A stretch of 64,000 nucleotides of DNA, from positions 1,798,001 to 1,862,000 of the forward strand of contig NC_089441.1 in assembly GCF_026210795.1 (NCBI RefSeq), written 5' to 3'. Of the stretch, positions 14,357 through 44,048 are shown one piece after another. Position 1 is the first letter of the stretch. Each line of letters begins with the position of its first letter. The position numbers and the translations under genes are program-made. The notes under the pieces were generated by a model. That model was not told the DNA's origin and did not search any database. It saw nothing but the letters and a program-made list of their open reading frames with translations. The stretch is from Rhizophagus irregularis. Lineage: Eukaryota > Glomeromycota > Glomeromycetes > Glomerales > Glomeraceae.

Positions 14357-14556
14357 TTAACTATTATTATTGAAAATTCCACCTACTAAATCGCAATTTC
14401 TTTTTAGAAAAATTAAAGCTTCAAACAAATCCTCCTTTATTCTCATTCTTTTAGCAGACATTATCAATCCAGCATCACTAAAAACTCTTTCACTTGCTCC
14501 TGATGATGCTTGAATACACAAATATTTGCGTGCTAATTGAGCCAAAACTGGAAATT
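14357..14556 (-). pseudogene. hAT transposase, C-terminal dimerisation piece
   Basis: Reads EFPVLAQLARKYLCIQASSG followed by ASERVFSDAGLIMSAKRMRI and EALIFLKRN. This is the conserved C-terminal dimerisation region of hAT transposases (family pattern: LARKYL-x-I-x-ASS-x-x-SERVFS-x-AG). It directly continues the middle piece that ends 16.7 kb away at 31297, which shows the TIR element landed inside the gene. The C-terminus is at 14357. Confidence 0.88.
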
Positions 14557-14712
14557 CACTAGTCGAAAAAGGAATATTCGGCCTTAGTAAAATTCAGCCT
14601 ATATTCAACTAAAATTAAAAATTTGACCTTAATTAGCAATGATCTATGATTAGACATTGGTCGAATAACTAACCATGCTGGTCGAATAGCCACGTCATGC
14701 ATTACGCGTATC

Positions 14713-14755
14713 AAAAGTTTAAAAAAGAATCTTATGCATTCTTTTTTAAACTTTT
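14713..14755. repeat. Perfect 18-bp inverted repeat (hairpin)
   Basis: AAAAGTTTAAAAAAGAAT (14713-14730) and its exact reverse complement (14738-14755) flank a 7-base spacer, CTTATGC. It lies at the left edge of the TIR element's internal region, before the first intron-like unit. Confidence 0.85.
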
Positions 14756-14919
14756 ATTTCTTCTTTTCCTCGTCCTTTGGCTCTATAGGCGCGGAAAAAA
14801 ACAAAAAAAAATTATTTTATTTTATTTTTTTTTTAAATTTTAAATGTGGCCCTTTCCCTTTTCGTAGTAATTCTATGGGAATTCTGGTCGAAACTACGCA
14901 CCGGACTTTGGATAATAAG

Positions 14920-15611
14920 GTAAATGGGAAAGGGAAGCCATTTTTTTTACTTTAGAAACGTTTTAACGTTTCTTTTTTTTCTTTTTCTTACAGGTATTTC
15001 CGGACGAAACGAGCTTCGTGATAAGATTCGTAAGTAGAATCTTAGTAGTTTTTTTTAATATTATGGAACGGTTACTAACCGTTCTTGTTTTTTTTATAGG
15101 TTTTGGGAAAACGAAGGGAAAGGGTAAGACGAAGGGAAAGAGTAAGATGAAGGGAAAAGGGTAAGACGAAGGGGAAAATGAAAGGGAAAGAGAAAATGAA
15201 AGGAAAGGGTAAAACAAAAGGGGAAAATGAAAGTGAATGGGACGGAAAAGGAGTACTTTTTTAAGATTCGTAAGTATTCTATTACGAATCTTAAATTTTT
15301 TTTTTCTTTTTTATTATTATGGAACGGTTTACTAACCGTTCCTTTCTTTTTTTTTATAGGTTCGGGTGGACTTTTGACGAATGGAAAACCAAGATTCGTA
15401 AGTAAGTACGAATCTTAGTTTATTTTATTTTTCTTTTTTTTAAAAAATATTATGAACGGTTACTAATAACCGTTCTTTTCTATTTTTTAGGTTTCGGGTG
15501 GGCTTCTGAAGAAGGAAAACCAAGAAACCAAGATTCGTAAGTAAGTACGAATCTTGGTTTATCTTTTTTTCTTTTTTTAAAAAAATATTACGAACGGTTA
15601 CTAATAACCGT
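14920..15611 (+). repeat. Left part of the tandem intron-like unit array
   Basis: Each unit runs: donor palindrome, T-rich spacer, TTATTATG, branch palindrome, T-rich tract and AG, then a short 'exon'. Inferred introns are 15030-15099, 15270-15359, 15398-15490 and 15537 onward (cut by the retrotransposon at 15611). Donor palindromes pair AAGATTCGTA with TACGAATCTT around GTAAGT. Branch palindromes pair GAACGGTT with AACCGTTC around TACT(AA), at 15066-15084, 15321-15342, 15454-15475 and 15592-15611. An earlier, less typical unit has a donor at about 14920, a different palindrome (AGAAACGTT / AACGTTTCT, 14954-14973) and acceptor CTTACAG at about 14992. Exons at 15360-15397 and 15491-15536 share TTCGGGTGG. 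Confidence 0.8.
15100..15269 (+). repeat. Purine-rich minisatellite in a putative exon
   Basis: Degenerate tandem copies of a GGGAAAGGGTAAGACGAA-like unit, almost pyrimidine-free on the plus strand. It lies between an AG acceptor at 15098-15099 and a GTAAGT donor at 15270. GA-rich stretches of this kind often act as exonic splicing enhancers; that role here is only inferred. Confidence 0.65.
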
Positions 15612-16989
15612 TGTCACCCCCGTCTGCCACCCGGCGGTAAACAAAGTTCCCTGCTTCTGTTATATGTGCTCTCAGCGAAACATTAATATTCTTGCTTGGT
15701 TTAGTTTTATTACTACTTAACTTTCAAATTGCGATAGCTCTCGCCACGATATTTCATCCATTATCTTCTTTCAAAATACGATAGTTCTCTTTATAAAAGT
15801 TTATATTTTATTCATTTCATAATTCTTGTTATGACATTAAATTCACCATGAATTTGTCCAATTAAAATTAATTAAGCGAACATTACAGTAAAGTTTAGGG
15901 CGAACCTATTACCTTTAAAATAACATTACGCTTTACTAACAATTAATTAAACAAAATTACTTTTTCATCATAAGAAAATAGTAACAAAAACAATCGAAAC
16001 AATTAATTTTCATATAAAGGGTATTTTATTTATTCTTCATAAAATTCACAATTAACTAATTTACTTAAAGTTTTACATCGTATCTGACGACTGTGGAATT
16101 CACTTCCCATTCCGCTCCTATTTAAACCAACTTTCTTATTCTTTCTTTTCCTACTTCTTATTTCTTTCTAATATTTTATATGTTATTTTTTATGCGCTAT
16201 CTTATATGCTATTTTATATGTTATCTTTTCTAATATGTTATACTATTTTAATATGCTATCTTTTCTTTAAAATAATCTTTCGCATATTATGTCGTAAAGA
16301 TATAATCCATCTTTTGTGGCTGTGCTATCTTTTCTTTAAAATAAAATAATCTTTCAAATATTATATCGTAAAGATCCATCTTTTGTGGCTGTGCTATCTT
16401 TTCTTTAAAATAAAATAATCTTTCAAATATTATATCATAAAGATCCATCTTTTGTGGCTGTGCTATCTTTTCTTTAAAATAAAATAATCTTTCAAATATT
16501 ATATCGTAAAGATCCATCTTTTGTGGCTGTGCTATCTTTTCTTTAAAATAAAATAATCTTTCAAATATTATATCATAAAGATCCATCTTTTGTGGCTGTG
16601 CTATCTTTTCTACTGCGTATCGTCAGCTATTCTTCTACTGCGGCTGCAGTTCATCAATATTTTACATGTTCCTATTTTTTTTGTTCCTTTAATTCGCTAT
16701 CCTTCCTTTTTATATGATTTATCATTTGTGGCTTATGATTACTCCTCCTAATTGTTCCTATTGTTGAACTTGATAAACTGGTTGCTAAGCCACATCGATC
16801 AACTCCCCACTTGATCTATTGGTTCTCCATTAATTATTTAATAAACATTACATCATGTAGATCATTCCTTCTCCTAAAAGTTTATCCTTTCCGGTTAATT
16901 TTATCCAATCATGTGACTTTCTATCGTTTGATCTTTTATTCCATATTATTCCTCCATATTATGCGATTACTTCAGTATCTATGGCTACA
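15612..16989 (-). repeat. 3' LTR of the gypsy-like element
   Basis: 1378 bp, same length and near-identical sequence to 27236-28613. It lies downstream of the integrase stop and polypurine tract, so it should supply the transcript 3' end. It carries the same number of 69-bp repeats as its partner. Confidence 0.92.
16306..16612. repeat. 69-bp tandem repeats inside the LTR
   Basis: About four and a half copies of a 69-bp unit containing CTTTTGTGGCTGTGCTATC, alternating between TATCGTAAAG and TATCATAAAG variants. Because 69 is a multiple of three, one minus-strand frame stays open as a 23-residue repeat; I read that as a by-product. Present identically in both LTRs. A regulatory role in the LTR is possible. 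Confidence 0.85.
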
Positions 16990-17006
16990 GTTTGCCCCCA
17001 CCTAAA
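16990..17006 (-). promoter_or_regulatory. Polypurine tract of the gypsy-like element
   Basis: In the sense direction TTTAGGTGGGGGCAAAC abuts the 3' LTR, just after the integrase stop at 17019. The G-rich core and position fit the plus-strand primer; pyrimidines at both ends make it imperfect. Confidence 0.6.
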
Positions 17007-17018
17007 ATTTGAGTCCCA

Positions 17019-18206
17019 TCAAATTCGAATTATTACTTCAAAATTTGTCCTATCAATATATTCTTTCAGTAATTCACCATTTACTGGTGTTTTCAATATC
17101 TTCCCTTCCATAGTTTTAATTCTGTATGATCCTTTAGAAATTATCTCATGTACATAATAAGGTCCTTTCCATTTTTCTTCTAACTTTCCAGACCATTGTT
17201 TTTCTTTTGCTGCGTCATAATATAGTACTTTATCTCCGATTTGTAATTTCTGCTTTATTCTATTCTTCTTATCATGGTACGATTTTTGTTTTTCCTGAGA
17301 TTTCCTGACATTTTCTTTAGCTTGATTCCTAATGTTTGGTAATCCTTCGATCAACTCATTAACTCTCTCTGCCATGGTAATTTCCTTATCTTCTAAATCT
17401 AATAATGTCTTCATTTGTCTCCCATATATTAAATATCCTGGTTCCATTTTCGTTGAATCATTCCTTTTAGTTCGATACGCGAACAATACTCCTGGTACTT
17501 TCAAATCCCAATCTTCGATATTACTTAGCTTTGCTAATGATTCACATAATGTCTTATTAAATCTTTCAATTAACCCATTAGTTTTTGGATGATAAGGCGT
17601 CGAAAAGTTATGTTTTATCTGAAATTCCTCCATTAATGATTTCACTAATTTATTATTGAAATGACTCCCTCTATCACTCAATATCTTCTTTGGACATCCA
17701 TGCCTACATATTATATCTTCATAAATAAATCTTGCAATTTCCTTAGCATCTGCTGTTTCCAATGCCTTTGCTTCAGGCCATTTTGTAAAATAATCCATCG
17801 CTGTAACTATATATCTATTATTTCTCTTTGTTATTGGTAATGGTCCCACTACATCAATCCCAATTTGATAAAATGGTTCTATAACTTTGATTACATTCAG
17901 TTCATGTTTTCCTATTGGTTTTCCTCTTCTCTGACAATTATTACATGATTTGACATAAGCTTCCACATCTTTTCTCATCCCTTTCCAATAATACCCATCC
18001 TTGATCCTATTATACGTTGCATCTATTCCAAAGTGTCCTGATAATTCATGATCATGAGCTATGTACATTAATCCTTCAAATTCGTATTTTCTTATCACTC
18101 TTAGTCTTTTCTCATCTTTTATTTTGTAAATTAATCCTCCTATAATTTCATATTCCCGTTCGTCATTGATATTCCTCGCTATCCTATTATATTCTTCCTC
18201 TTCCAT
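17019..18206 (-). CDS. Integrase of the gypsy-like element
   Basis: 395 residues. An N-terminal HHCC zinc-binding domain is visible (HDHELSGHFG near residue 52, CNNCQ near 92). The catalytic core follows with the D,D,E triad: GIDVVGPLP (about 117), LSDRGSHFNN (about 178) and GLIERFNKTL (about 214). A basic C-terminal part (KLQIGDKVLYYD, KWKGPYYVHEI) is the usual GPY/F-type module. It inserts the cDNA copy into chromosomes. It is a separate ORF, in the same frame as the upstream kinase ORF but divided from it by stops and by the 113-codon ORF, so its expression route is unclear. The start at 18206 is the first Met of the frame. No disabling change is seen. Confidence 0.93.
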   Translation of the reverse strand: MEEEEYNRIARNINDEREYEIIGGLIYKIKDEKRLRVIRKYEFEGLMYIAHDHELSGHFGIDATYNRIKDGYYWKGMRKDVEAYVKSCNNCQRRGKPIGKHELNVIKVIEPFYQIGIDVVGPLPITKRNNRYIVTAMDYFTKWPEAKALETADAKEIARFIYEDIICRHGCPKKILSDRGSHFNNKLVKSLMEEFQIKHNFSTPYHPKTNGLIERFNKTLCESLAKLSNIEDWDLKVPGVLFAYRTKRNDSTKMEPGYLIYGRQMKTLLDLEDKEITMAERVNELIEGLPNIRNQAKENVRKSQEKQKSYHDKKNRIKQKLQIGDKVLYYDAAKEKQWSGKLEEKWKGPYYVHEIISKGSYRIKTMEGKILKTPVNGELLKEYIDRTNFEVIIRI

Positions 18207-18228
18207 GTCTATGTTGTAATTCTAAAAG

Positions 18229-18305
18229 CTAAAGTGTTGTAAAAGGTTGAAATGTTATAAAGGGTTGAAGTGTTGTAAAAATTAAGGTGTTGTAAAAATA
18301 AAGCG
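18229..18305 (-). repeat. Short degenerate repeats between the small ORF and integrase
   Basis: About four copies of a 17-19-base unit, TTTACAACACTTCAACC-like in the sense direction, fill the gap before the integrase start. The sequence is unstructured and G-poor. It may be a translation or splicing element, but nothing shows which. Confidence 0.6.
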
Positions 18306-18329
18306 TCGTGATAACTGTTCCATATATTT

Positions 18330-18671
18330 TTAATTTTTATCTCTTGATTTATTTTTGATCCTTGGTATTTCTATCCTTCTTATATATTTTTCATTCCCTA
18401 TAATCAATTTAGATCGTACCCATCCTAATCCTTTTTCTATTGGTCTTTTTTCTATTATCATATTATTTCCATCTTCCATAATTAATTTCACCTTTTTCTC
18501 TTTTAGTCTTATTATAATGTGTACATCTACTAGTATGAAGTCTTCTTCTTCTTCAATCCTTAAATGGATAATTGTTTCGTTCTCTTCTTCTTTTATGGTC
18601 ACTTTCCATATCTTATCGACCTTTACTCGATAGGTAAGAAACCAATTCATATAACAATCTCCTAATACCAT
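18330..18671 (-). CDS. Unknown 113-residue ORF between kinase and integrase
   Basis: Beginning MVLGDCYMNWFLTYRVKVDK, rich in Glu, Lys and Ile with alternating hydrophobic and charged residues that suggest beta strands (IIHLRIEEEEDFILVDVHII). No catalytic motif, zinc motif or membrane segment is seen and I do not recognise a family. It is in the same frame as the upstream kinase ORF and only six codons beyond its TAA, so it could be an extension by readthrough, a separately initiated protein, or a remnant of a domain once joined to integrase. Confidence 0.5.
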   Translation of the reverse strand: MVLGDCYMNWFLTYRVKVDKIWKVTIKEEENETIIHLRIEEEEDFILVDVHIIIRLKEKKVKLIMEDGNNMIIEKRPIEKGLGWVRSKLIIGNEKYIRRIEIPRIKNKSRDKN

Positions 18672-18686
18672 TTTGGAAATATAATT

Positions 18687-21020
18687 TTAAGCTCTTTGGT
18701 GTTTTTCTATCTCCTTATATACTTTTCTCCAACTACTATCGTCATTCCTAACTTCAATTTGACTGTATCTTTTGGTATATTTGTATACATCCTGGTTTTC
18801 TTTAAACATTTTAACCATGTCCAAATATTCATTTTTCTTTAATGTTGGGTATGACGATTTCTCCATTTTCTTCGTTTCTCTTCCAATATAATTTTCCCAA
18901 CATACATCGCCATCTTTTTCCAAAAATATCACTATTGATTCATCTATTGTTCCTTTTAATCTGAATATTTCTTTTTCCATCTCATGGTTCCCATGTGGAG
19001 TAATCAATCCTCTGTTGAAACTTTTCGTCTTCTGATAATAATATTCGCAATATGGCGATTTGTCCAGAATTATTATATCCGTATCTTCATCATATTCTAA
19101 CATTCTTCTGTTTATTTGTTCTACTACTTCCTTTCTAAATTTCCATTCTGTTTCTAATTTTGATTCGTGAAATTCACCTTTGTCTTTTTTTCTCCTTTTG
19201 AATGTATTAAATCTTACTTTTAATCCTTGCTTTTCCCACTCTTTAATCAAATTTTGTACTATACTTGTTTTTCCTAATCCATCCACTCCGTCGATTATAA
19301 TAACTTGTGGCTTATTTTCTCTTCCCAATTTCTTTAATAATTCTTTTTCTGTCCTTTCCTCCAAATTCAAAAGTATTGCTTCTTTATCGGTAAAATATTT
19401 TTCATCATCCCATCTCCCTTTAAATCTTTTAGCATTATACCATTTATTCCTAAATTTGATATATCTCAATTTCCCCTTATTACTTTCTATTTTTGTTATT
19501 TCTTGATTCTCGTTCCTTTCTGTTTCTTTTTCTTTAAATCTCAGTCTTGATAATCCATCTGCATTTTTAATTTTCTTTCCACTTCTATGTACTATTTTAA
19601 AATCAAATTGTTGTAATTTCATTACCCATCTTGCTCTCCTTCCCGTTTGTTCCTTTCCATCTGTTAATCCTTTTAATGCTGCGTGATCTGTTATCACTAT
19701 AAATTTCCTTCCTACTAAATATTTCTGAAAATGTTGTATTCCCCAAAATACCGCTAAGCATTCCAATTCTGTTGGTGGATAATTCTTCTCTGCCCCAACT
19801 GTACTCCTACTTGCGTAAGCTATTACAACCTCTTTATTTTCTTCATTCATTTGAGCTAACACTGCTCCTAATCCTATCTTAGATCCATCAGTTATCAATA
19901 TAAATTCTCTGCTGAAATCCGGATATACTAAAATTGGATTTTCTGTCAATTTTGTCCTTAATACGTCAAATGCTTCTTGTTGTTCTTCTTTCCATTCAAA
20001 CTTTTCATTCTTTCTTGTTAAGTTAAGCAAAGGTTTTGCTATCTTCGAAAAACCTTTCATAAATCTCCTATAATATGAACATAATCCTAAAAATGATCTT
20101 ACTTCTGTGACAGTTTTCGGCCTCCTCATATTTTCTATTTTCTCAACTTTCTCTTTATCCGGTCGCAATCCATCTCTTCCTACTATATGCCCTAAGAAAT
20201 TTATATTTCTCAATCCAAACTGACATTTCTTCAATTTCACAATCATATTATTCTCTCTCAATTTACTCAATACTTTATCTACATGTTCTATATGTTCCTC
20301 AAAATCTTCTGAATAAATCATTATATCATCTAAATACACTGTAACAAATTCTCCTATATATTCTTTTAATATTTTATCCATTAATCTCTGAAATGTTCCT
20401 GGTGCATTCTTCAATCCAAATGGCATAACATTGTATTCATATAATCCTTGTGAACAAATGAATGCTGTTTTCTCTTTATCTTCTTCTGCCATTTCTACTT
20501 GATGATATCCTGCTGCTAAGTCCAAACTTGTGAACCAACTTCCCTTTCTAAATTTTTCTAACAATTCGTCTATCCGGGGTAAAGGATATTCATCTGACTT
20601 TGTCACATTATTTAGCTTTCTATAATCTATACAAAATCTATAATTTCCAGTTTTCTTTCCTGCTAACGTTACTGGAGATGCCCAATTACTCCATGATTCT
20701 CTTATCTTCCCCATCTTTAACAATTGTTCAATTTCTTTCTTTATAAACTTTCCTTTTTCATCAGTTTCTTTATATCTCTTTTGTGCTATTGGTCCTTGAT
20801 TTTCTTCAATTATTATTTCATGTTTAACTGTATTTATCCTTCCCAGTTTCTCTTCGTCATATTCGAATATATCTTCATATTCCCTTATCAATTTTTTAAA
20901 TGCTATTCTCTCCTCATCGCTCATTTCTCCCAGATGTGTTTTCTTTTCAAATTTTTCTTCTTTGCTCTCATTTAGCATCTTTACCGTCTCTCCTTCATTC
21001 AGAAAGCCAAGACCATTCAT
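18687..21020 (-). CDS. Reverse transcriptase-RNase H fused to a thymidylate-kinase-like domain
   Basis: 777 residues. The RT occupies about 60-300, with VTLAGKK, FCIDYRKLN, SLDLAAGYHQ, MPFGLKNAPGTFQ and the catalytic VYLDDIMIYS. RNase H is at about 375-500 (FILITDGSKIGLGAVLAQ, ELECLAVFW, VITDHAALKGL, NADGLSRL). A third domain fills about 570-777. It opens with a P-loop, IIIDGVDGLGKTS, typical of thymidylate kinases. IIILDKSPYCEYYYQ then sits where these kinases bind substrate, and IVIFLEKDGDVC with RETKKME sits at the expected lid position; it ends in a terminal helix. Thymidylate kinases phosphorylate dTMP. The domain has the full length of a kinase and is open, so it is probably functional, but substrate choice is inferred. 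The start overlaps the protease stop as ATGA. Confidence 0.88.
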   Translation of the reverse strand: MNGLGFLNEGETVKMLNESKEEKFEKKTHLGEMSDEERIAFKKLIREYEDIFEYDEEKLGRINTVKHEIIIEENQGPIAQKRYKETDEKGKFIKKEIEQLLKMGKIRESWSNWASPVTLAGKKTGNYRFCIDYRKLNNVTKSDEYPLPRIDELLEKFRKGSWFTSLDLAAGYHQVEMAEEDKEKTAFICSQGLYEYNVMPFGLKNAPGTFQRLMDKILKEYIGEFVTVYLDDIMIYSEDFEEHIEHVDKVLSKLRENNMIVKLKKCQFGLRNINFLGHIVGRDGLRPDKEKVEKIENMRRPKTVTEVRSFLGLCSYYRRFMKGFSKIAKPLLNLTRKNEKFEWKEEQQEAFDVLRTKLTENPILVYPDFSREFILITDGSKIGLGAVLAQMNEENKEVVIAYASRSTVGAEKNYPPTELECLAVFWGIQHFQKYLVGRKFIVITDHAALKGLTDGKEQTGRRARWVMKLQQFDFKIVHRSGKKIKNADGLSRLRFKEKETERNENQEITKIESNKGKLRYIKFRNKWYNAKRFKGRWDDEKYFTDKEAILLNLEERTEKELLKKLGRENKPQVIIIDGVDGLGKTSIVQNLIKEWEKQGLKVRFNTFKRRKKDKGEFHESKLETEWKFRKEVVEQINRRMLEYDEDTDIIILDKSPYCEYYYQKTKSFNRGLITPHGNHEMEKEIFRLKGTIDESIVIFLEKDGDVCWENYIGRETKKMEKSSYPTLKKNEYLDMVKMFKENQDVYKYTKRYSQIEVRNDDSSWRKVYKEIEKHQRA

Positions 21021-21622
21021 TTTTCCTCATCTCTCTTTTCTCTATCAGTTTTCACAATCGATAACAACTCTTCTTTTTCCATCTCCTCATATTCATCTTC
21101 ACCCTCTGACTCTTCACTAGAATTGCCATCTATATCATCTATATTCTTTGGATCTTCATTAAATTCGCCCCTATTCCCTGACTCCTCAAATTCAACATTT
21201 TTCTTTCCTCTAAAATCAATTGGTATTTCATATATTCCATTATCCCATTCTATTGTTAACAGACCTTCTTTCATATTTATTATCCCATATCTTAATAAAT
21301 CAGTTCCTAATATCAAATCTTTTCTTCTCGAGTCAATTACTTCGAACTCTAAAGGTATTTCTAAATTTTCATCAATTTCTATTCTAATTTCCACTCTTCC
21401 TAATGAAGCTATGTTATTTCCATCCGCTATTGTCAATACAACATCACTTTTCTTCATTATTGGTATATTTAATTCCTTTCTCAATTCATTCATTATTACT
21501 GAAGGTCCTGCTCCTGTATCAACTAATGCTCTGATCATTTTTCCCTCAATTATTATATTACATCTTGTTGCTTGTGATTTTTCTTCTTTCCGATTAATAT
21601 TCTTTAATTCCCCCGAGTGTAG
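21017..21622 (-). CDS. Aspartic protease of the gypsy-like element
   Basis: The first Met is at 21538, giving 173 residues. The same frame is open back to the Gag stop at 21623-21625, so the protein is more likely made as a Gag extension. A retropepsin signature is present right after that Met (RALVDTGAGPSVI), with a second conserved stretch ILGTDLLRYG about 75 residues on, where family members have the (I/L)LG-x-D motif. The C-terminal third is acidic (SSEESEGEDEYEE). It should cleave the Gag and Pol polyproteins. Its stop overlaps the RT start (ATGA), and RT is in the -1 frame. Confidence 0.88.
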   Translation of the reverse strand, partial: LHSGELKNINRKEEKSQATRCNIIIEGKMIRALVDTGAGPSVIMNELRKELNIPIMKKSDVVLTIADGNNIASLGRVEIRIEIDENLEIPLEFEVIDSRRKDLILGTDLLRYGIINMKEGLLTIEWDNGIYEIPIDFRGKKNVEFEESGNRGEFNEDPKNIDDIDGNSSEESEGEDEYEEMEKEELLSIVKTDREKRDEEK

Positions 21623-24600
21623 TCAATATCTCAAACCATTTAATAATTTCTTCCTTACCTCTGGTCTTTCATTCATCATTTGTCCCCAATTAATTGGTAC
21701 GCTTGAATTTACAAATTGCTCAAATGGATCAAAATCTCCAACATTTGGTATATTTCGATTTAACTTCACTTTCTCGTTTGTACATTCTCTAGCAAAATGT
21801 CCTTGTTGTCCACAATTGTGACACCTATTATTATTCTTTCTAGTTTCATATCCTTTCTGTAATTGTTCTTTTGTAAAACCCCTCTTATTATTCCCCTGTG
21901 CTTTTTGCTGTTGTCCTTGCCATTGTACATTTCTTCTTCTATCTCTTTCATCATTCATAACCTTGTCTTTATTTCTTTCACTCTTTCTAGGTGGTACTGG
22001 GAACATATCGTATCTTTCCTCATCTTCATAGTTATTCACTTCGTATCCATCGAATCCATTATTATAGTTATCATATCCATCACCCTCATTATATCCATCA
22101 TATCCATCATTATATTCCATATTATACACATTATATCCTTCACCATAATATTCTTCATCAAGGTAATTAACTTGATTATTTTGGCTATATGACCCTTTAT
22201 TATTTCCTCCATATGATCTTCTTTGACCTTCCCTACAAACTCTAGAAGTATGTCCTTTTCTTCCACATGTATAACAAGTCATTCTATCCCAGTTCATATT
22301 ATTTCTTTGGACATTATTATTTCTGATCGGTCTCCTATCATTCCCATTCCTTTGCATTACATATGCTTCATTTCTCTGCATTACATGTGCTTCCAACCTT
22401 TTCATTCCATTAATTAACTCATCCCATTCATCACTTTTAACTTCTTTATTTTGTAACTCTTTCGCAATTGGATTCATTCCTTTATACTTATTTGTCTCTT
22501 CTTTCAAAATTTCTTCCATGTTTTTCTCTTGTCCTACTCGTTTCATATCCAACCCTGTTGTTTTCATTAACAATTTATCTTTCGCTTCCTCTTCTCTTTT
22601 TGCTTCGTTAACTGCATCATTCAGATTCGTCGGATTACTTCTCCTAACATGATAACCTAGCATAGCATCTAACCCTTGAATAAAATAATTCACTTGATAT
22701 AAATCATCTAACGCATGACCTCTAGTTGCAACTCTTAATATTGACCTAAATCTTCTAGTATATTCCTCAACACTTTCATTTGTTCCCTGTTTAATTCTTG
22801 TTAATTCTAACATCTTTCTTCTTTGAACATCATTCCTAGTAAATCTGTCGATTAATCTTCTTTTTAAATTCCTGTCCTCATTATGATCACACCAATTCAC
22901 TAAATTAGCTGCTACCCTTTCTTTTTCCTCATTATACCATTGTAATGCAATTCCTCTTAAACAAGTTATAGCTATGTTTGCCTTATTTTGTCTACATACA
23001 CCTCCTCCAACATTTCCTTCTGGTCGTCCACTTACTGTAAATGCTATCTCAAATTGTCTAATCCAATCATTAATATCTTCATCCTCTTTTCCACTAAAAG
23101 TTGGCATACCTACTATTCCCCCCATTCCTGCAGTCTGAATCCTATCCGCCAAAGTCTGTCCTGCTCCTAACGCATTATCTAATGCATTTGGTGCCAATCC
23201 CATAGCATTCTCCATTATTCTTCTTATTTGTGCTTCATTTGCCATATTTACTATATTCTCTTGAAATAATTCTTGTAAATTGTAATCAGATATTTCACTT
23301 TCTGTGTCAGAATTTTTAAAATTTAATGAACTATTCGAATCTGAATCTTGACTCAGACCAAAACCTCCTGTATTTATAACATTTTCGATTTCATTTTCAG
23401 ATTCTTCTTCTTCAGAATCTTCATCACTTCCGTCCCATATTTCATATTCTTCTGGACTTAATATTTCTCCAATCTTTTCTGAATCATCTGTATTATCTTC
23501 TTCTGATTCTTCATTATCACTCTTTTCACCACTTTCTTCACTATCTATTATTCCTGCTTGTTCTTTCAACAACTTATCTAACTTTTTCTTCAATTCTTTT
23601 TCCGACTCATTCTTATTTTCTTGAAAGATTTCAATGAATTCTTTATCTAAAATTTCTCCGTCTGTATATCCCATACTAATTAATCTCAACAATTCTTCTT
23701 CAGTTATTATTGTTCCAACACCTTCAAAAATCTTTTGTAATCTTTTTACCCGATCATCAATTTCATCGACATCTTCCTCCTCACAATCTTTGCATACAGT
23801 TCCTCCTAATCTAAACATATCATTCATCCATCTTATTTCGCATCTTTCGCACCAAGTTGTATTCTCATTTAACCACTTATGAATCTCTTTTCTTAACTCT
23901 CTATCTTCTAATTCTATTATTCCCATATACCTTTCTATGAATTCTTCTGTTACCATTATTCGATTATTAACTCCAAAATTCTTTATTCTTTGAATTTCCG
24001 ATACATCCATTTCGTATCCTAATTTTTCTAAGTTGTTTTTTAGTTCTATTAATTCATCTTGTTCATCTTCCCGTATTTCCCGATTACATTCTTCACATCT
24101 GCCGTCTTCTTCCGATATCACATAATCTAATTTCTGTTTATTGCATCTACCACATATTTTTGTACTCAAATCTATCCATTCCTTTATGTCTTCAGACTTA
24201 TCAAATTTCCCCTCCTGAAAAATATAATATCTTATAAAATCATATGTCAACAGTACTCCCGTCTCTATCTTTTCTTTTATTCCAAATTTCATTATTTCTC
24301 TAATGAATTCTTCTTTTGGATTTACCATCAGTTGTCTTAATCCTGTCCTTATTTCACTTAACTTCCACGTTTTATCTTCTACTATTATTTCTATTTCTTC
24401 TTCAGAATCATACATTTCATTATCTTCTTCTTGCTTTATCTCCACTAACTTGAATTTTTGTGTTCTTTCCATTGTTTCTTTTAAGTCTGTTACAACCCAT
24501 TCTATTACACCATCATCTATTCTCAATATGATAGGATCTCTTGTATATATATCTTCGCTATCTTTAAATGTCATACTATCCATTAGTTTTCTTACAGTAT

Positions 24601-25546
24601 CTTCTTGCAAATTTTCTCCCTCAGATAACATCTTCTCGAACCATTCTGGTGAATCATTTTCATGATATGTATATATTTGTTTACCTTCATATTTGTCATT
24701 CCACCAGTACCTAAATCTTTCAAATCTAAGATATAAACTCGTGTTAAAATTCTTTTTCATTTCGTAACTTTCTAAACTATCTTCACTTTCTGAATCTTCT
24801 GGTTCTTTTATAAAGCCCCTAGTATCTATAAATATTCTTATTATCTTTTGTACCATATTCCTGTGATATTCGTGAACATTTTCTATGTCTATATTCCCAT
24901 GTTCCATATTGGACATTAACTCTTTTACTTTCTCCTCATTCGTAGCTATCCCCTCTTCTTCATAAAGTAATTCCCTGAATGTCTTTATTGCTCCCAACTT
25001 TACTCGTAATGGTTCAACTTCTTTCGATGTGATTCTGTACCATTGCCAAAATTTTTCAAACCTTCTTTCAACATCCCAATCTTCCAAAATATATTTGTGT
25101 TCTATTAATTCAGGATTTCCGATTAATCTATCAAATACTTCATTCTCTAAATCTCCTTCAATACAATCTCTTACAATTACTAATATAATCGTTCGTAATC
25201 CTTTTTCTTTCATTTTTGGTTGTATTCTATATCTTATTGATTCCATTATTCTATTCATTATGTCTCTACATCTTCCTTTATGTATTGTATCTTCTCTTTC
25301 TGAATTATTCATACTTAATAAATCCAATACTCCTTTAATTGTTACATTATTATATATTATTATTGTATCTTCGAACTTAAATAATGCATCCCAAAATTTC
25401 TTGAATACCATTGGTTCATTTCCTATCGGATGACATAATTCACAATTTAAACATTCATCTAATTCTCCCGTTCTTAACTCATGTTCTTCTTTATGTGTCC
25501 TATATTCACTTTCCCATTGATGATACCATTCCATCATATACTTCAA
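21623..25546 (-). CDS. Gag polyprotein with a large N-terminal extension
   Basis: 1307 residues. The capsid-type region is at about 795-960 (GMPTFSGKEDEDINDWIRQF, ALQWYNEEKE, RLIDRF, EEYTRRFRSI), matching the retrotransposon Gag family. Two CCHC zinc knuckles follow: CYTCGRKGHTSRVC at about 1090 and CHNCGQQGHFAREC at about 1240, separated by a Tyr/Asn/Gly-rich stretch. Another possible start is Met768 (MANEAQIRR), which would leave a normal Gag. The preceding 767 residues are acidic and carry C-x2-C...C-x2-C zinc-ribbon-like modules at about 463-486 and 564-586, of unknown function. The frame ends in UGA followed by CUA, then continues open into protease. Confidence 0.85.
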   Translation of the reverse strand: MKYMMEWYHQWESEYRTHKEEHELRTGELDECLNCELCHPIGNEPMVFKKFWDALFKFEDTIIIYNNVTIKGVLDLLSMNNSEREDTIHKGRCRDIMNRIMESIRYRIQPKMKEKGLRTIILVIVRDCIEGDLENEVFDRLIGNPELIEHKYILEDWDVERRFEKFWQWYRITSKEVEPLRVKLGAIKTFRELLYEEEGIATNEEKVKELMSNMEHGNIDIENVHEYHRNMVQKIIRIFIDTRGFIKEPEDSESEDSLESYEMKKNFNTSLYLRFERFRYWWNDKYEGKQIYTYHENDSPEWFEKMLSEGENLQEDTVRKLMDSMTFKDSEDIYTRDPIILRIDDGVIEWVVTDLKETMERTQKFKLVEIKQEEDNEMYDSEEEIEIIVEDKTWKLSEIRTGLRQLMVNPKEEFIREIMKFGIKEKIETGVLLTYDFIRYYIFQEGKFDKSEDIKEWIDLSTKICGRCNKQKLDYVISEEDGRCEECNREIREDEQDELIELKNNLEKLGYEMDVSEIQRIKNFGVNNRIMVTEEFIERYMGIIELEDRELRKEIHKWLNENTTWCERCEIRWMNDMFRLGGTVCKDCEEEDVDEIDDRVKRLQKIFEGVGTIITEEELLRLISMGYTDGEILDKEFIEIFQENKNESEKELKKKLDKLLKEQAGIIDSEESGEKSDNEESEEDNTDDSEKIGEILSPEEYEIWDGSDEDSEEEESENEIENVINTGGFGLSQDSDSNSSLNFKNSDTESEISDYNLQELFQENIVNMANEAQIRRIMENAMGLAPNALDNALGAGQTLADRIQTAGMGGIVGMPTFSGKEDEDINDWIRQFEIAFTVSGRPEGNVGGGVCRQNKANIAITCLRGIALQWYNEEKERVAANLVNWCDHNEDRNLKRRLIDRFTRNDVQRRKMLELTRIKQGTNESVEEYTRRFRSILRVATRGHALDDLYQVNYFIQGLDAMLGYHVRRSNPTNLNDAVNEAKREEEAKDKLLMKTTGLDMKRVGQEKNMEEILKEETNKYKGMNPIAKELQNKEVKSDEWDELINGMKRLEAHVMQRNEAYVMQRNGNDRRPIRNNNVQRNNMNWDRMTCYTCGRKGHTSRVCREGQRRSYGGNNKGSYSQNNQVNYLDEEYYGEGYNVYNMEYNDGYDGYNEGDGYDNYNNGFDGYEVNNYEDEERYDMFPVPPRKSERNKDKVMNDERDRRRNVQWQGQQQKAQGNNKRGFTKEQLQKGYETRKNNNRCHNCGQQGHFARECTNEKVKLNRNIPNVGDFDPFEQFVNSSVPINWGQMMNERPEVRKKLLNGLRY

Positions 25547-27215
25547 CTAAATTATTAAAAATATTCATCCAGAATTCAAATTGAAATTCCACTCTCTTAT
25601 ATATCATTTTTATCGCTTCTATTTTGATCTTCTAACCATCCTTTACTATATTGTCCTTTCCTATTACCTATATTGAATGTATAATCTTTCTTTCATTATG
25701 AATATTCATTTAACAACTTATTATTTTTTTTCTAAATCTTTTACTTATTCATAATATTCTTATATTAATCTTTCAATCTTTAAATCCTCTTTTTTTTTTT
25801 GATTTTCACAAGTTTCTTCTGCTATTCTTATCTTTCATAATTTCATGTATATATTTTACTGCGCCATTAATTCAAAAATTATTCTAAGTCCACAATCTCC
25901 TCAGACTGCGGAGGTTTTTATTGCGCATTCTAAAAATTTCAAAAATTTTCTAAGTTTTTACTGCGCCTCAAAATTTTCTTTTATCATCAAAATTTGTAAT
26001 TTTCGCATTTCACGAACTTCAAAATTCTCATAACTTCTAAAGTTCGTGAATTTTTAGTTCTTTTTCATTATATATGTAATCTTTACATCTATATATTCAA
26101 TATTACGCAAAATATCTTCTTTGTTTAATCTTGTACTAATTCTTATTATAACCATTATGTCGACACACAACATATTATACTTTATGCGACACACGCATTT
26201 ACACTTATGCGACACACGCATTTACGCTTATGCGACACACGCATTTATACTTATTTAACGGTGTTTCTTCTTATTTATTATCTTTTACAATTTAATAACC
26301 TATACTCGGCTTGCCTTTACCTTCACAATGAAGTATAGTAGTTTCAAGGTTTGCTATTCACATTTTATCATTTGACCAGCAAATATTCCTAAATTTCGCA
26401 TTATTCCATAACGTTCATCTTCTTTTCGTGAGTTCAATTGCGCATTTTCCTAAATGCTTTCAGTTTTATCTGAAGAAGTTATACTCACGATGGTTTCTCT
26501 TTTTGCCTTGTGAATTCAATTACGCATATTCAAAATGCTTTCAGTAGGGAGATGTTCCACTCACGTCTGAGTCCAGTTATTTCGATTCCCATCTGAAGAA
26601 GTTATATTCACAGCCGGTGTTTTTGTAATAGGTTCCCACGTAACCCTTGTGTTTTAAATAGGTTCCCACGCAACCCTTGTGTTTTGGTAATAGGTTCCCA
26701 CGTAACCCTTGAGTTTATAGCTTACTCGTCAACTTTTCGTTACAACATTGTATCCCCAGGAACTTCTGGCATCTGCAAAATACAATGGTGCCCCTCCCAG
26801 AATACAACATCTTACGAGGGCTTCCTTAATTTCTCGGTTTTACAATTATTAGCGTGAAAACTTCAAAGACAACAACTTATGTGACTTACTACAATACTTT
26901 CCGGATTTTCCTGTAATAAATCTATTATTTTGAAACGGGTTCATTATATTCCATCATATCACCGCATCCTTCTTTTTATAATTCCTAAGGTAGGTGTATA
27001 ATATCGCTATTTCGCCCGTTCCCATTTTAATTCTAACACCTCTTTTTTCTGAGTTCAGATTCTTCGGAATACCACGTCGGTACCATGATCAGAGCGATCC
27101 TTCCCTTCGCGAGTGATCAATTCACTTAGTTGTTGACCGATTCCTCCTTAATACCGCATAGGTACTTGACTATAAGAAGATAGTCAAAATGTCGACGCAA
27201 AGTCAACATTTCCTT
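25547..27215 (-). other. Leader of the gypsy-like element with two repeat arrays
   Basis: About 1.7 kb between the primer-binding site and the Gag ORF, with no ORF of note. It holds three 23-bp repeats with TTATGCGACACACGCATTTA (26182-26250), and three roughly 30-bp repeats with AATAGGTTCCCACGTAACCC (about 26627-26715). Packaging or translation signals would be expected here but cannot be identified. Confidence 0.7.
26182..26250. repeat. Three 23-bp tandem repeats
   Basis: Three nearly perfect contiguous copies of a unit beginning TTATGCGACACACGCATTTA. Each unit contains TGCG...CGCA, a short palindrome. They are contiguous with no spacers, so this is not a CRISPR array. Confidence 0.85.
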
Positions 27216-27232
27216 TCTCAGAGCATGCACCA
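27216..27232 (-). promoter_or_regulatory. tRNA primer-binding site of the gypsy-like element
   Basis: In the sense direction, three bases after the 5' LTR, the sequence reads TGGTGCATGCTCTGAGA. It starts with TGG, so a tRNA ending TCTCAGAGCATGCACCA could prime minus-strand synthesis. The tRNA identity was not determined. Confidence 0.7.
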
Positions 27233-27235
27233 AAT

Positions 27236-28613
27236 TGTCACCCCCGTCTGCCACCTGGCGGTAAACAAAGTTCCCTGCTTCTGTTATATGTGCTCTCAGC
27301 GAAACATTAATATTCTTGCTTGGTTTAGTTTTATTACTACTTAACTTTCAAATTGTGATAGCTCTCGCCACGATATTTCATCCATTATCTTCTTTCAAAA
27401 TACGATAGTTCTCTTTATAAAAGTTTATATTTTATTCATTTCATAATTCTTGTTATGACATTAAATTCACCATGAATTTGTCCAATTAAAATTAATTAAG
27501 CGAACATTACAGTAAAGTTTAGGGCGAACCTATTACCTTTAAAATAACATTACGCTTTACTAACAATTAATTAAACAAAATTACTTTTTCATCATAAGAA
27601 AATAGTAACAAAAACAATCGAAACAATTAATTTTCATATAAAGGGTATTTTATTTATTCTTCATAAAATTCACAATTAACTAATTTACTTAAAGTTTTAC
27701 ATCGTATCTGATGACTGTGGAATTCACTTCCCATTCCGCTCCTATTTAAACCAACTTTCTTATTCTTTCTTTTCCTACTTCTTATTTCTTTCTAATATTT
27801 TATATGTTATTTTTTATGCGCTATCTTATATGCTATTTTATATGTTATCTTTTCTAATATGTTATACTATTTTAATATGCTATCTTTTCTTTAAAATAAT
27901 CTTTCGCATATTATGTCGTAAAGATATAATCCATCTTTTGTGGCTGTGCTATCTTTTCTTTAAAATAAAATAATCTTTCAAATATTATATCGTAAAGATC
28001 CATCTTTTGTGGCTGTGCTATCTTTTCTTTAAAATAAAATAATCTTTCAAATATTATATCATAAAGATCCATCTTTTGTGGCTGTGCTATCTTTTCTTTA
28101 AAATAAAATAATCTTTCAAATATTATATCGTAAAGATCCATCTTTTGTGGCTGTGCTATCTTTTCTTTAAAATAAAATAATCTTTCAAATATTATATCAT
28201 AAAGATCCATCTTTTGTGGCTGTGCTATCTTTTCTACTGCGTCTCGTCAGCTATTCTTCTACTGCGGCTGCAGTTCATCAATATTTTACATGTTCCTATT
28301 TTTTTTGTTCCTTTAATTCGCTATCCTTCCTTTTTATATGATTTATCATTTGTGGCTTATGATTACTCCTCCTAATTGTTCCTATTGTTGAACTTGATAA
28401 ACTGGTTGCTAAGCCACATCGATCAACTCCCCACTTGATCTATTGGTTCTCCGTTAATCATTTAATAAACATTACATCATGTAGATCATTCCTTCTCCTA
28501 AAAGTTTATCCTTTCCGGTTAATTTTATCCAATCATGTGACTTTCTATCATTTGATCTTTTATTCCATATTATTCCTCCATATTATGCGATTACTTCAGT
28601 ATCTATGGCTACA
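27236..28613 (-). repeat. 5' LTR of the gypsy-like element
   Basis: 1378 bp. In the sense direction it begins TGTAGCCATAG and ends GGGGGTGACA. Differences from the other LTR, seen by eye, are seven single substitutions, five of them at CpG sites. This LTR should hold the promoter for the minus-strand transcript. It contains the 69-bp repeat array at about 27930-28236. Confidence 0.92.
27930..28236. repeat. 69-bp tandem repeats inside the other LTR
   Basis: The same array and copy number as at 16306-16612, with the same alternation of G and A variants. Equal copy number in both LTRs fits recent insertion by reverse transcription. Confidence 0.85.
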
Positions 28614-30940
28614 CCGTTCTTTTCTATTTTTTAGGTTTCGGGTGGGCTTTCGAAGAAGGAAAACCAAGAAACCAAGATTCGTAAGTAAGTACGAATCTTG
28701 GTTTATATTTTTTTTCTTTTTTTTAAAAAAATATTACGAACGGTTACTAATAACCGTTGTAAACGGTCGAATATCAAGCATGAAAAGATGATAAAATTCA
28801 ACCACCAAATGTAATTTCCAAATATTAAGAACGAACAAATTGATTGTGAATTGGCGTAGATGGATAAATAATTAGCCGAAAAGGATAAACATTTAAGAAG
28901 AGTAATGGGAATCCCATAATTTTTATGAACTCAATATTTTAGTAATATATAAACTAAGCGATATCTATAATGTTGATAAACATTTAGGAAGAGTAATGAT
29001 CTACATAATGTAATATTCATCAAGTAGTTGACAAAGAACCAATAGGATAATTAGAGTCGATCAATTGCGGCTTAGCAATCTTTAACAATAAGAACGATTA
29101 GAAAGAATAATTATAAGCCACAAAAGATAGATTATAAGCAAAACACATAAAGTGAATTGAAAGAACATATAGAATAATGTCAGAAAGATTAAAAAAACAC
29201 ACAAAATAATATAAAAGATAATATAAAAAGATAGTATAAAGATGGAACATAAAAGATAACATATTAAAAAGAACATATATAAAAAGATAGCATAGCATAT
29301 TAAAAGATAGCATATTAAACGATAGCATATTAAAAGATAGCGTATTTAAAATATAGATAGTATATTAGAAAGATAGTTCAAAGATAATATGTAAAAAGAA
29401 CATAAAAGATAGTATATAGATAGAATAGAAAGTAGTATAAAAATTGTATAAATAGAGAACGGAATTCAAGGTAATTCCATAGTTCTCATCCACAGAACTC
29501 AATAAAAATATAAGTTTCATTTAATTATTTGTTAGTGAAGTTTAATATTAATTAGAGGTAATAGGTCCGCCCTAAACTTTAATTAATGTTCGCTTAATTA
29601 ATTTTAATTGAATAAAACGGAAATTTAAGATGAATTAAATATATACTTTTGGAAGGTAATAATTCGTAGCGAGAGCTATCGAAGTTTGAAATTAAAGGTA
29701 AAAGTGGATATAATTTGGGAAAATTTAGAGAAGTTAATTTTATTTTATATCGTTCAACGTTTTATATTACTAACGCTATTCATGTTGTGAACCAAGAATG
29801 TTGTTGTATATTGTTCGTTGATTTTGTTGTTTGTTAATTATGTTGTTGATTAATTGTTCGTTCGTTCGTTTATTCGTTCGTTCGACCATGGGAATGCCCG
29901 TTCGATGTGGCAACTCTGTAAATTGATGACAGAGGGAATCGGGGGATCTCACCGTTCTTTTCTATTTTTTAGGTTTCGGGTGGGCTTCCGAAGAAGGAAA
30001 ACCAAGAAACCAAGATTCATAAGTAAGTACGAATCTTGGTTCTTTTTTTTTGTTTTTTTAATATATGAACGGTTTACTAACCGTTCTTTTCTTTTTTTTA
30101 TAGCTAGTTCAGGTGGGCTTCCGAAGAACGAAAACCCAAAGATTCGTAAGTACAATACAAATCTTTAATTTTTTTTTTATTTTTTATTATTACGAATGGT
30201 TTACTAACCATTCTTTCTTTTTTTATAGGTTCGGGTGGGCTTCCAAAGAATGAAAACCCAAAAATTCGTAAGTACGAATCTTTAATTTTTTATTATTTTT
30301 TATTATTACGAATGGTTTACTAACCATTCTTTCTTGTTTTTTTATGGCTAGTTCGGGTGGGCTTCCAAAGAACGGAAAAACCCAAAGATTCACGTATGAA
30401 TCTTATTTTTTTTATTTTTTTTTTAATATTATGAACGGTTACTAATAACCGTTCTTTCTTTTTTTTAGGATCGGGTGGGCTTTTGACCTTTAGGAAAAGA
30501 GGAACCAAGATTCGTAAGTACGAATCTTGGTTTATTTTTTTTCAATTTTTTTTTTTTTAATATTAATGAACAGTTACTAATAACTGTTCTTTCTTTTTTT
30601 TTAGGCTTCGGGTTGGCTTCTGATCTTCAGAAAAAGTGGAACCAAGATTCGTAAGTACGAATCTTGGTTTATTTTTTTTCAATTTTTTTTTTAATATTAT
30701 TATGAACGGTTACTAATAACCGTTCTTTTCTTAACTTTTTAGGTCTCGGGTGTCTCGGGTGTCTTCCAAAGAATGGAAAAAACCAAAGATTCATAAGTAA
30801 GTACGAATCTTGGTTTTTTTTCTTATTTTTTTTAATATTATGAACGGTTACTAAACGTTCTTCTCTTTTTTTATAGGTTCGGGTGGATTGCCAAAGAACG
30901 ATTAAAGATTCATATATACGAATACATGAATCATGTAATT
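28614..30940 (+). repeat. Right part of the tandem intron-like unit array
   Basis: Continues the left block once the gypsy-like element is removed; a solo LTR (28758-29951) interrupts it again. Putative exons are 28635-28680, 29973-30018, 30104-30145, 30229-30267, about 30350-30392, 30469-30513, 30605-30650, 30743-30792 and 30877 onward, 39-50 nt each and sharing CGGGTGGGCTT. Branch palindromes lie at 28738-28757 (split), 30067-30086, 30194-30213, 30310-30329, 30433-30454, 30568-30589, 30704-30725 and 30842-30860. Arms vary but keep pairing: GAACGG/CCGTTC, GAATGG/CCATTC, GAACAG/CTGTTC. Some units have mutated signals: donor GT changed to AT at about 30019 and 30793 with a second GTAAGT 4 bases on, and acceptor TATAG changed to TATGG near 30345. 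Confidence 0.82.
28758..29951 (+). mobile_element. Solo LTR of a related gypsy-like family (1194 bp)
   Basis: Begins TGTAAACGG and ends GGATCTCA, with CCGT on both sides (28754-28757 and 29952-29955). It has no internal coding region. The segment near 29545-29610 (AGGTAATAGGTCCGCCCTAA, then TTAATGTTCGCTTAATTAAT) matches the reverse complement of the full-length element's LTR, so the families are related but the lengths and ends differ. It interrupts the same palindrome type, at the same internal base, as the full-length element, in the opposite orientation. Confidence 0.85.
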
Positions 30941-31296
30941 GTGGAATTGTATTTGAATTAGAAATATTTTTTGTAAATTAGATAGATGCAATAATAATAA
31001 TATAATTATAAAGTATTTAGGCATTAATAAATACATTTATTTAATAATAAATTTGATAAAAAAAATCGTAAATAAATGGGTTGTTATTAGACCATAATTC
31101 GGCTTAAAGTTTTAAGGTCAAATATTGGTCAATTTAAGCCTAAATAATGGTCGAATAATTAGTCTGAATTTGGGACGATTGGCATCCTAAATGCGCCCGA
31201 AAATTTGACCTCAATTTGACACAGGTTAGACCATCATTTGACCTATATTCGACCTGGTCAAATTTAGGCTGAATTGTCCTTTTTTGACTAGTAATT

Positions 31297-42579: not shown

Positions 42580-44048
42580 TTATAATTTAATTACTTGAAA
42601 TACTTCATAACATTCTACTAGAAAATTTGCTGGAATACCAACATTAGAATAATAAGTTCCAGAAGTATTATAAGTCCAATTTCTTGAATTAGGACAATAC
42701 AAATTACCCATTTGTGGTCCATGATTATTATTGCAACAAATAGCATAACTTCCAGAACTATTAATAGGACCTAACTTTGCAGTAGAATTATTTTTACTAT
42801 CTAAAATATTAAATAGAAAACTATCTGTAGTATTTTTCCAATTACAATTCCCACCCCAGTCAAGTGGATTATAACCTCCAATCAGTTGGTTTGAATTTTG
42901 AATTTTTGCAATCCAAATTGTTGGTCCTTTATTGTCACAATTCTTATGAAATGAAGCAGTATTAAAACCATCCCTACTTGAACGATATAATAATTTAAAT
43001 TTATAAGGAATATTTCTTTTATCGTAATGCATAGAATCTCTTTTATCAATCCATGAGGAAAAAATAGGAGCATAACCTGATTCAATTAAAGTTGAATCAA
43101 GTTTTGGTCTTCTTGAAGGTTTTACGTTAGTTTTAGGTTTCATATTAGGAACTATATGAAATTCCAAAAGATCATGGATTAAATCTTGTGGAAGTATATC
43201 CTTATAATTATAAACTCTATAAAAGAAATCACTAGGTCCGATATCATAAAACCTAATTAGAGGAATAAATCTATGCAATAAATTTTCTAAATTTGTAATA
43301 TCTTCTTTATTCCATTCTTTTGGATCATTCTTCATTTTTTGTTGAGCAAAACACCATTTTAATAAACTCTCCCAAACATCGATTTCATCTATAATTAGAT
43401 CATCTCTTTTTAGCAATAATTCTAATAAAGGAACTTTTAAATTAATAAATCTGTCGGAATTAAATAACATCATGGGATTTTCACAAATTTTTTTAAGACA
43501 AAAATCCCATAAATCCGTAAATGTTTCATGTTGATAAACAGTTTCAAGAATGCCAGTTGGATTTTGATGCAAAAATTCAGTTTGATGTTCAATCAAATAT
43601 TCTTGAATATGAAAAATTAATTGTTGAATATTAAGTTCATCAACTGCTATCAATAATTTTAATATATCTGGTCCTTGTAAATCTTTCAGTTCAATATTTC
43701 CACAATAAATATATCTATTATTGAGATAATAAAATGTTATAAATAATTTTAAAATAAAAAAAGTATTTTTGTTTTTATAATTATTATACATTACCTAAGA
43801 ATAATTTTAAATAAATGTGGCGCAATATTTGGTTTTCTTAAAATAAACTTACCATCCTTTTTTTCGGCCCATTCATTAGAAAATGCAGCATGAAAATATT
43901 GAGACCTAACGCATAAAATATTTGAATGAGCATGAATTTCTTTTATATTTGGTCCTTCTCCAGCATAAATAATAACATCATATCCTATTTCTTCTTCAAA
44001 AAGCCTTTTGTAATCATTGGATAATTCTGTCAAAAATTTTGAAGTCAT
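42580..44048 (-). CDS. BTB-BACK-TLDc protein, intact two-exon gene
   Basis: Exons 43795-44048 and 42580-43714 join through a GTAATG...AATAG intron to encode 462 residues. The BTB domain is at about 20-115 (YDVIIYAGEGPNIKEIHAHS, LCVRSQYFHAAFSNEWAEKK, then RYIYCGNIEL across the junction). The BACK region is at about 130-260 (LLELLLKRDDLIIDEIDVWE). TLDc is at about 290-460 (FKLLYRSSRDGFNTASFHKN, IGGYNPLDW, ending LVECYEVFQVIKL). Proteins of this layout are strongly expanded in arbuscular mycorrhizal fungi. BTB domains commonly bind cullin-3 and TLDc is of unsettled role. This is the only undamaged member in the window. TATA-like sequence (CATATTTATACA) lies about 50 bases upstream. Confidence 0.9.

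Follow-up and report, generated by a model that had tools for sequence, protein, structure and literature searches.

A probable array of spliced, hairpin-presented introns inside a CACTA-type transposon of Rhizophagus irregularis

What is a chain of short intron-like units, each bearing two palindromes, doing inside a transposable element, and is it spliced? We address this question for a window of 64,000 nt of Rhizophagus irregularis DNA (C13:1798001-1862000; genome searched, 146.7 Mb in 32 contigs), in which twelve such units lie between 15030 and 30860. A preliminary description of the locus had proposed spliceosome-type introns on an element framed by terminal inverted repeats (TIRs). We now consider it probable that the locus represents a single member of a non-autonomous, recently mobile CACTA (CMC/EnSpm-type) family of this fungus, and that the interior of the element is a multi-intron transcription unit made of hairpin-presented introns.

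The TIR-framed element is borne out, with its right part organized as follows:

14557-31293, plus strand: non-autonomous CACTA-type element with its array on the same strand; target-site duplication (TSD) ATT at 14554-14556 and 31294-31296
31050-31293, plus strand: right subterminal region together with the right TIR; in the 12 intact copies this is where TTYGACC/GGTCRAA motifs cluster

The TIR is CACTAGTCGAAAAAGG; in the window copy the right terminal base is changed, and the sequence reads TACTAGTC from the end. CACTA ends together with a 3-bp target duplication are the hallmark of CACTA elements. Inverted termini of this type are present at 13/13 left ends and 12/13 right ends, the exception being the window copy, and the 3-bp duplications are identical in all 13 copies with both ends available. 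When the window ends were compared with fetched loci by BLAST, a right border at 31292-31296 was common to 25 of 29 loci (L002-L030, some of which overlap and are counted separately). In a search with the left end, the left border fell no more than 4 bases from 14557 in 39 of 41 rows.

The 12 intact copies that we parsed measure 1.4-4.3 kb and carry 4-21 introns apiece, and whole copies are up to 97.8% identical. Exon order and exon lengths are common to several of them; therefore the array travels as a block. Since that block moves within a dispersed CACTA element, the label of satellite, suggested earlier, is not supported. The subterminal TTYGACC/GGTCRAA motifs are found near the right end in 12/12 copies and near the left end in 2/12, and in all 12 the first and last array palindromes stand 468-554 and 387-460 nt from the element ends.

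Transposition would be carried out in trans by CMC transposases encoded elsewhere in the genome. At least 155 genomic matches to Transposase_21 (PF02992) exist, and none of those listed falls within the 13 copies; no autonomous parent was found at a C15 locus or in a 14.3-kb copy on C12. In the C12 copy, three of the five open reading frames (ORFs) of at least 100 amino acids were scanned, and one is hAT-like. Locus L079 (C15:366700-369200) has a related CACTA end and a different interior with an AT-rich tandem repeat of ~200 nt. Transposase_21 matches at C4:2969499-2969957 and C6:4406211-4406657 lie beyond the ends of two array copies, at distances of ~630 and 130 bp, as though insertion had occurred close to or within other CMC elements.

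Inside the element, all 12 window units conform to the grammar first proposed for them: donor palindrome, branch palindrome, T tract, AG, then a short exon. The 12 donors and 12 branch palindromes (TACTAA core) follow one another in order at 15030-15611, 28681-28757 and 30019-30860, with a tandem period of ~120-140 nt. Eleven of the donors belong to the ATTC(G/A)TAAGT type, and the twelfth is the variant ATTCAC/GTATG at 30394 (the slash marks the splice site). Two insertions with long terminal repeats (LTRs) interrupt the array and cut two of the 12 branch palindromes. The successive parts are these:

14920-14993, plus strand: first intron (GTAAAT...ACAG) with branch-region palindrome GAAACGTTTTAACGTTTC, upstream of the units
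15030-15099, plus strand: intron 2, donor palindrome with GTAAGT, branch palindrome GAACGGTTACTAACCGTTC
15100-15269, plus strand: long, purine-rich exon
15270-15359, plus strand: intron 3 (unit)
15398-15490, plus strand: intron 4 (unit)
15491-15536, plus strand: exon of 46 nt
15537-28634, plus strand: intron 5 (unit), branch palindrome split by a Gypsy LTR retrotransposon
28681-29972, plus strand: intron 6 (unit), branch palindrome split by a solo LTR
30023-30103, plus strand: intron 7; G+1 of the main donor is A (ATAAGT), and the placed protein uses a donor 4 nt on
30146-30228, plus strand: intron 8 (unit), from protein placement
30268-30351, plus strand: intron 9 (unit), acceptor GGCTAG, from protein placement
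30394-30468, plus strand: intron 10, variant donor ATTCAC/GTATG, from protein placement
30514-30604, plus strand: intron 11; both arms of its branch stem (GAACAGTT/AACTGTTC) are changed
30651-30742, plus strand: intron 12 (unit), from protein placement
30797-30876, plus strand: intron 13; the main donor is ATAAGT, and the placed protein uses the +4 donor

The donor palindrome is AAGATTCGTA.AG.TACGAATCTT, which aligns to the splice site as AAGATTC/GTA.AG.TACGAATCTT, or takes a longer-loop form. Its loop is often AGTAAG, and its outer stem, which pairs exon bases with intron bases, reaches 15 bp. The branch palindrome is GAACGGTTA.CTAA.TAACCGTTC or GAACGGTT.TACT.AACCGTTC. Because palindrome loops vary, the exact strings initially reported miss these sites: the donor string has a single match, with two mismatches and on the other strand, and the branch string has none. 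First introns share the grammar and layout, with palindromes unrelated in sequence; the donor ones are GAAGGTATATATATACCTTC and, in L079, ATGTAAGTTTCG.TTT.CGAAACTTACAT.

Five pieces of the window fold far below shuffled sequences (z from -5.1 to -7.3), none of 200 shuffles being equally stable. In the folded forms the branch A lies in a loop, whereas the GU of the most frequent donor form belongs to the stem, base-paired directly below the loop; the initial view that both signals occupy hairpin loops is thus only half right. Across the genome, the 5' hairpin pattern gives 409+341 matches, self-complementary ones being counted twice, against 0 for a reversed control. The commonest branch-palindrome arms, with the loop left open, give 867 sites against 2, and a 481-nt query yields at least 305 matches. 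Donor arms of at least 8 are present in 203/242 array introns and in 0/9 intron-like stretches away from arrays, these nine being the whole comparison set.

The intron signals all point in one orientation. Among 330 parsed units, 253 donors read GTAAGT, 42 GTAAGA, 23 ATAAG and 12 otherwise, and the branch heptamer is TACTAAC in 129 and TACTAAT in 110; T makes up 75% of the sequence ahead of the AG. Intron lengths centre on 75-95 nt and exons are mostly 36-57 nt long. In parsed units, GT donor, branch motif, pyrimidine tract and AG follow in the order expected of U2-type introns. Palindromes kept without their splicing signals, named at the outset as a sign against introns, are a minority: they comprise the ATAAG donors and branch forms without TACTAA such as GAACGGTTCTAACCGTTC.

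Further, indirect evidence of splicing comes from public proteins, the exact placement of which needs splicing at array sites. Spliced in silico, the C10 copy matches 162 database proteins, of which 120 were listed, every one from R. irregularis. When placement was limited by script to exact codons and to introns running from GT or GC to AG, 16 of these 120 place exactly on the fetched loci and 104 do not. Of their 214 placed introns, the main donor accounts for 123, the +4 donor for 38 and ATTCAC/GTA for 4, and 49 lie elsewhere; array donors are hence used by 165, including 7 within the window. Per protein, the array-donor share ranges from 5/12 (P0078) and 5/10 (P0118) up to 13/13 (P0002, P0026). 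For P0049 the window is the sole placement among the loci compared, with 7/8 introns in the array and a start that can be placed in three ways, and the counterpart of the window's first intron is used where P0088 places on C2. On the C11 copy, P0053 shares most introns with P0063, P0071 and P0073 (RIR_jg29739.t6,.t3 and.t4, names that we take to belong to the 2018 AUGUSTUS set), and what distinguishes the four is the choice between donors 4 nt apart and the units that each skips. The gene models of the assembly in PMC10234402 are reported to come from BRAKER2 on RNA-seq, refined with Nanopore reads, and the 2018 gene set from AUGUSTUS with RNA-seq intron hints (PMC6123716).

The arms of the palindromes also covary. 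Outer donor-stem pairing amounts to 4.32 of 6 compared with 3.38 when partners are permuted (maximum of 2000 permutations, 3.59), and to 3.41 compared with 2.48 (maximum 2.91) for 70 distinct donor forms. This test uses 252 of 344 donor-like sites, the rest having failed inner pairing, and some of those kept are T-rich non-donors. Pairing is 0.72 and 0.83 in register and at most 0.47 when slid by 1-3, where only the outer pairs count because the set was selected on the inner four. Among 76 distinct loop-AG forms, matching double changes number 28 at pair -8, 9 at -9, 8 at -10 and 10 at -11, with one altogether over pairs -12 to -14. In branch stems, C-G became T-A in 62 of 280 scored, compared with 26 one-sided changes at that pair; these counts are rough because some branches were assigned to a nearby TATTAA, and many of the double changes are surely inherited. 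Taken together, signals, protein placements and stem covariation make it likely that the CACTA-carried array is spliced.

Could the locus simply be an ordinary multi-exon gene, accessory or captured, which encodes a repeat protein under selection and in which the hairpins are incidental? We regard this as unlikely, although the protein matches count in its favour, as does the composition of the exons: these contain 63 stops compared with 92 in shuffles (minimum 75), and 40 of 79 distinct exons have no stop in any of the three frames compared with 22.6 (maximum 33). Tandem donors, moreover, follow exons not divisible by three in 14/48 distinct exons as opposed to 1/31 of the others (p 0.003), though these counts are not independent, being made up by few exon types. 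Of 248 short exons, 133 have a length divisible by three, in line with the preliminary description, in which exon lengths are not restricted to multiples of three. Against this reading, just two of the 12 copies have spliced ORFs beyond the 95% point of a frame-randomised control (0-2 nt trimmed from every exon start, exon order kept), with margins of 1 and 3 amino acids, and a coding frame conserved among copies is not supported. Indels of 1 nt separate homologous exons, and one exon is translated in different frames in P0016 and P0030, two isoforms of a single gene. No Pfam domain stood above cut-off in the two proteins scanned. Hairpins inside exons are in only slight excess (mean arm 4.28 compared with 4.08; maximum of 40 shuffles, 4.25). 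Alternatively, the palindromes could be DNA sites bound by transposase or a host factor, like CACTA subterminal repeats, with the intron look as a by-product. They are symmetric at the DNA level, numerous and lodged in a CACTA element, and plant CACTA elements do have repeated palindromic or inverted subterminal motifs. However, the array is interior in 12/12 copies while TTYGACC/GGTCRAA cluster near the right end in all of them; loops, T tracts and AG run one way, non-palindromic signals are conserved, and public proteins need splicing there. We therefore give this explanation a low probability. Lower still is that of introner-like elements, in which solitary hairpin introns would insert themselves into host genes and the array would serve as their store, even though symmetric introns are also described for fungal introner-like elements and for Hypoxylaceae stwintrons (PMC8469720). 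Among the first ~100 matches listed for the 5' and branch-arm patterns, most were clustered and few stood alone. Of two candidate lone loci fetched in following up the suggested search for single units in host genes, L084 is a decayed array and L083 a two-unit stretch in another context, with no evident array; copies move as whole CACTA elements with TSDs, and the proposed source of introner-like insertions is not supported. A dead tandem repeat with chance splice-like words, to which the regular period might point, is hardly credible in view of ordered, oriented four-part signals in hundreds of units, of control matches numbering 0 to 2 genome-wide, and of the donor-arm contrast with off-array stretches.

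The spliced, CACTA-borne array that we favour has to be held against several observations that weigh on the other side. The frame-control result is one of them, and the antisense of the exons has still fewer stops, 37 (the sense strand alone was compared with shuffles). One-sided changes are common in donor stems: the 76 loop-AG forms show 6 at pair -8, 32 at -9, 10 at -10 and 21 at -11, and 31 loop-AGTAAG forms have almost no double changes, three over 14 pairs. DNA-level repair or protein binding can also keep palindromes perfect, and a stable stem over the donor is expected to hinder U1. Of 474 matches taken for a donor-G test, 192 were used, 192 are antisense and 90 ambiguous. In the 192 oriented donors the +1 G is changed 12 times and its mirror base 7 times (p 0.36), and exon base -1 is changed 6 times and its mirror 13. 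The donor G thus changes as often as its mirror, so that no selection on splicing is visible in the present copies and selection on this G is not supported; present copies look free of it, as dead transposon copies would. Finally, some of the 49 placed introns at other sites are implausible (long, near the start codon). So are the first introns in the placements of P0003, P0051 and P0078, and placements of this kind therefore cannot be taken with certainty as the annotated structures. Gene-finding programs can force GT-AG introns on a sequence to join ORFs, and our placements may differ from the annotators' own.

Locus L083 (C3:2255900-2258000) is a candidate for units outside a CACTA element: on its reverse strand, at 985-1226, two units are followed by a T-rich stretch with the near-palindrome GAGAATGTTAGTTAACATTTTC.

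How might the CACTA-borne intron array work? The element would be transcribed from its own left part, and the spliceosome would remove the array introns. Hairpins in the pre-mRNA may keep donor and branch point apart from those of neighbouring, near-identical units, and may tune the choice between tandem donors 4 nt apart; that they direct splice choice is our hypothesis. The product would be mosaic, basic, low-complexity proteins, or simply spliced RNA. More speculatively, and with the balance of our judgement against it, the unit could be a modular splicing cassette in which donor and branch point each sit on a dedicated covarying RNA hairpin. Chained with a 4-nt donor register and with exons often open in several frames, such cassettes would generate combinatorial, frame-shuffled transcripts and proteins.

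It is an old question whether structured RNA near splice sites promotes or impedes their choice. The family offers hundreds of natural near-copies that vary in stem, loop and donor register, and public long-read RNA data are available for the fungus (PMC10234402), which makes the question directly testable. A DNA transposon with an interior largely built of introns would also be shown.

Two further features of the window lie within the array limits and outside its grammar:

15612-28613, minus strand: nested Ty3/Gypsy LTR retrotransposon, TSD CCGT
28758-29951, plus strand: solo LTR, related to the Gypsy LTR but diverged from it and oppositely oriented, TSD CCGT

The two insertions sit at an identical position in consecutive branch palindromes (15608-15612 and 28754-28758). 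A general targeting of branch palindromes by LTR elements was considered and rejected: the broken form searched for occurs twice genome-wide, both times in the window. The reverse transcriptase-RNase H frame of the Gypsy element (18690-21026, minus strand) has a C-terminal P-loop stretch with weak NB-ARC and thymidylate-kinase-like matches, below cut-off. Elsewhere in the window, two frames (42583-43794, minus strand; 55252-56127, plus strand) have BACK and TLDc domains, and 62051-62608 (minus strand) matches DDE_3.

In the open-licence literature we found no earlier account of a transposon in which donor and branch palindromes are paired. The CMC-EnSpm and Plavaka elements of R. irregularis (PMC8647823, PMC11075540) belong to the same CACTA/CMC superfamily and are reported as expressed; the passages covered do not mention an interior intron array, and "intron" and "splic" are absent from the main text of PMC8647823. 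SP7-like effectors of the same fungus (PMC11333574) are likewise Glomeromycotina proteins with hydrophilic repeats. They have, however, a conserved intron before the first repeat, whereas in the array nearly every repeat is its own exon; given this layout an SP7 identity is not supported, and the name SP7 is absent from the displayed name parts of the 120 listed protein matches (of 162).

Other parallels are found among proliferating introns and intron-bearing transposons. Introners and introner-like elements (PMC8469720) are also repeated, structured spliceosomal introns, some of them linked to mobile DNA, but for the R. irregularis units single insertion into host genes has no clear evidence. 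The sister stwintrons and symmetric introns of Hypoxylaceae (PMC8469720) are, similarly, proliferated fungal U2 introns with strong internal symmetry, genuine on one strand only. Symmetry there spans the whole intron, through terminal inverted repeats 45-55 nt long, and the insertions lack short flanking duplications; in R. irregularis the donor and branch palindromes are separate and short, with the donor stem extending into the exon, and the copies are carried by a TIR element. The soybean CACTA element Tgm-Express1 (Zabala and Vodkin 2007, PMC1947982) shares CACTA ends, interior exons and introns, and many alternative splicings. It holds five unrelated host gene fragments, while the R. irregularis array is one small unit repeated up to ~20 times, with donor and branch each set in a palindrome.

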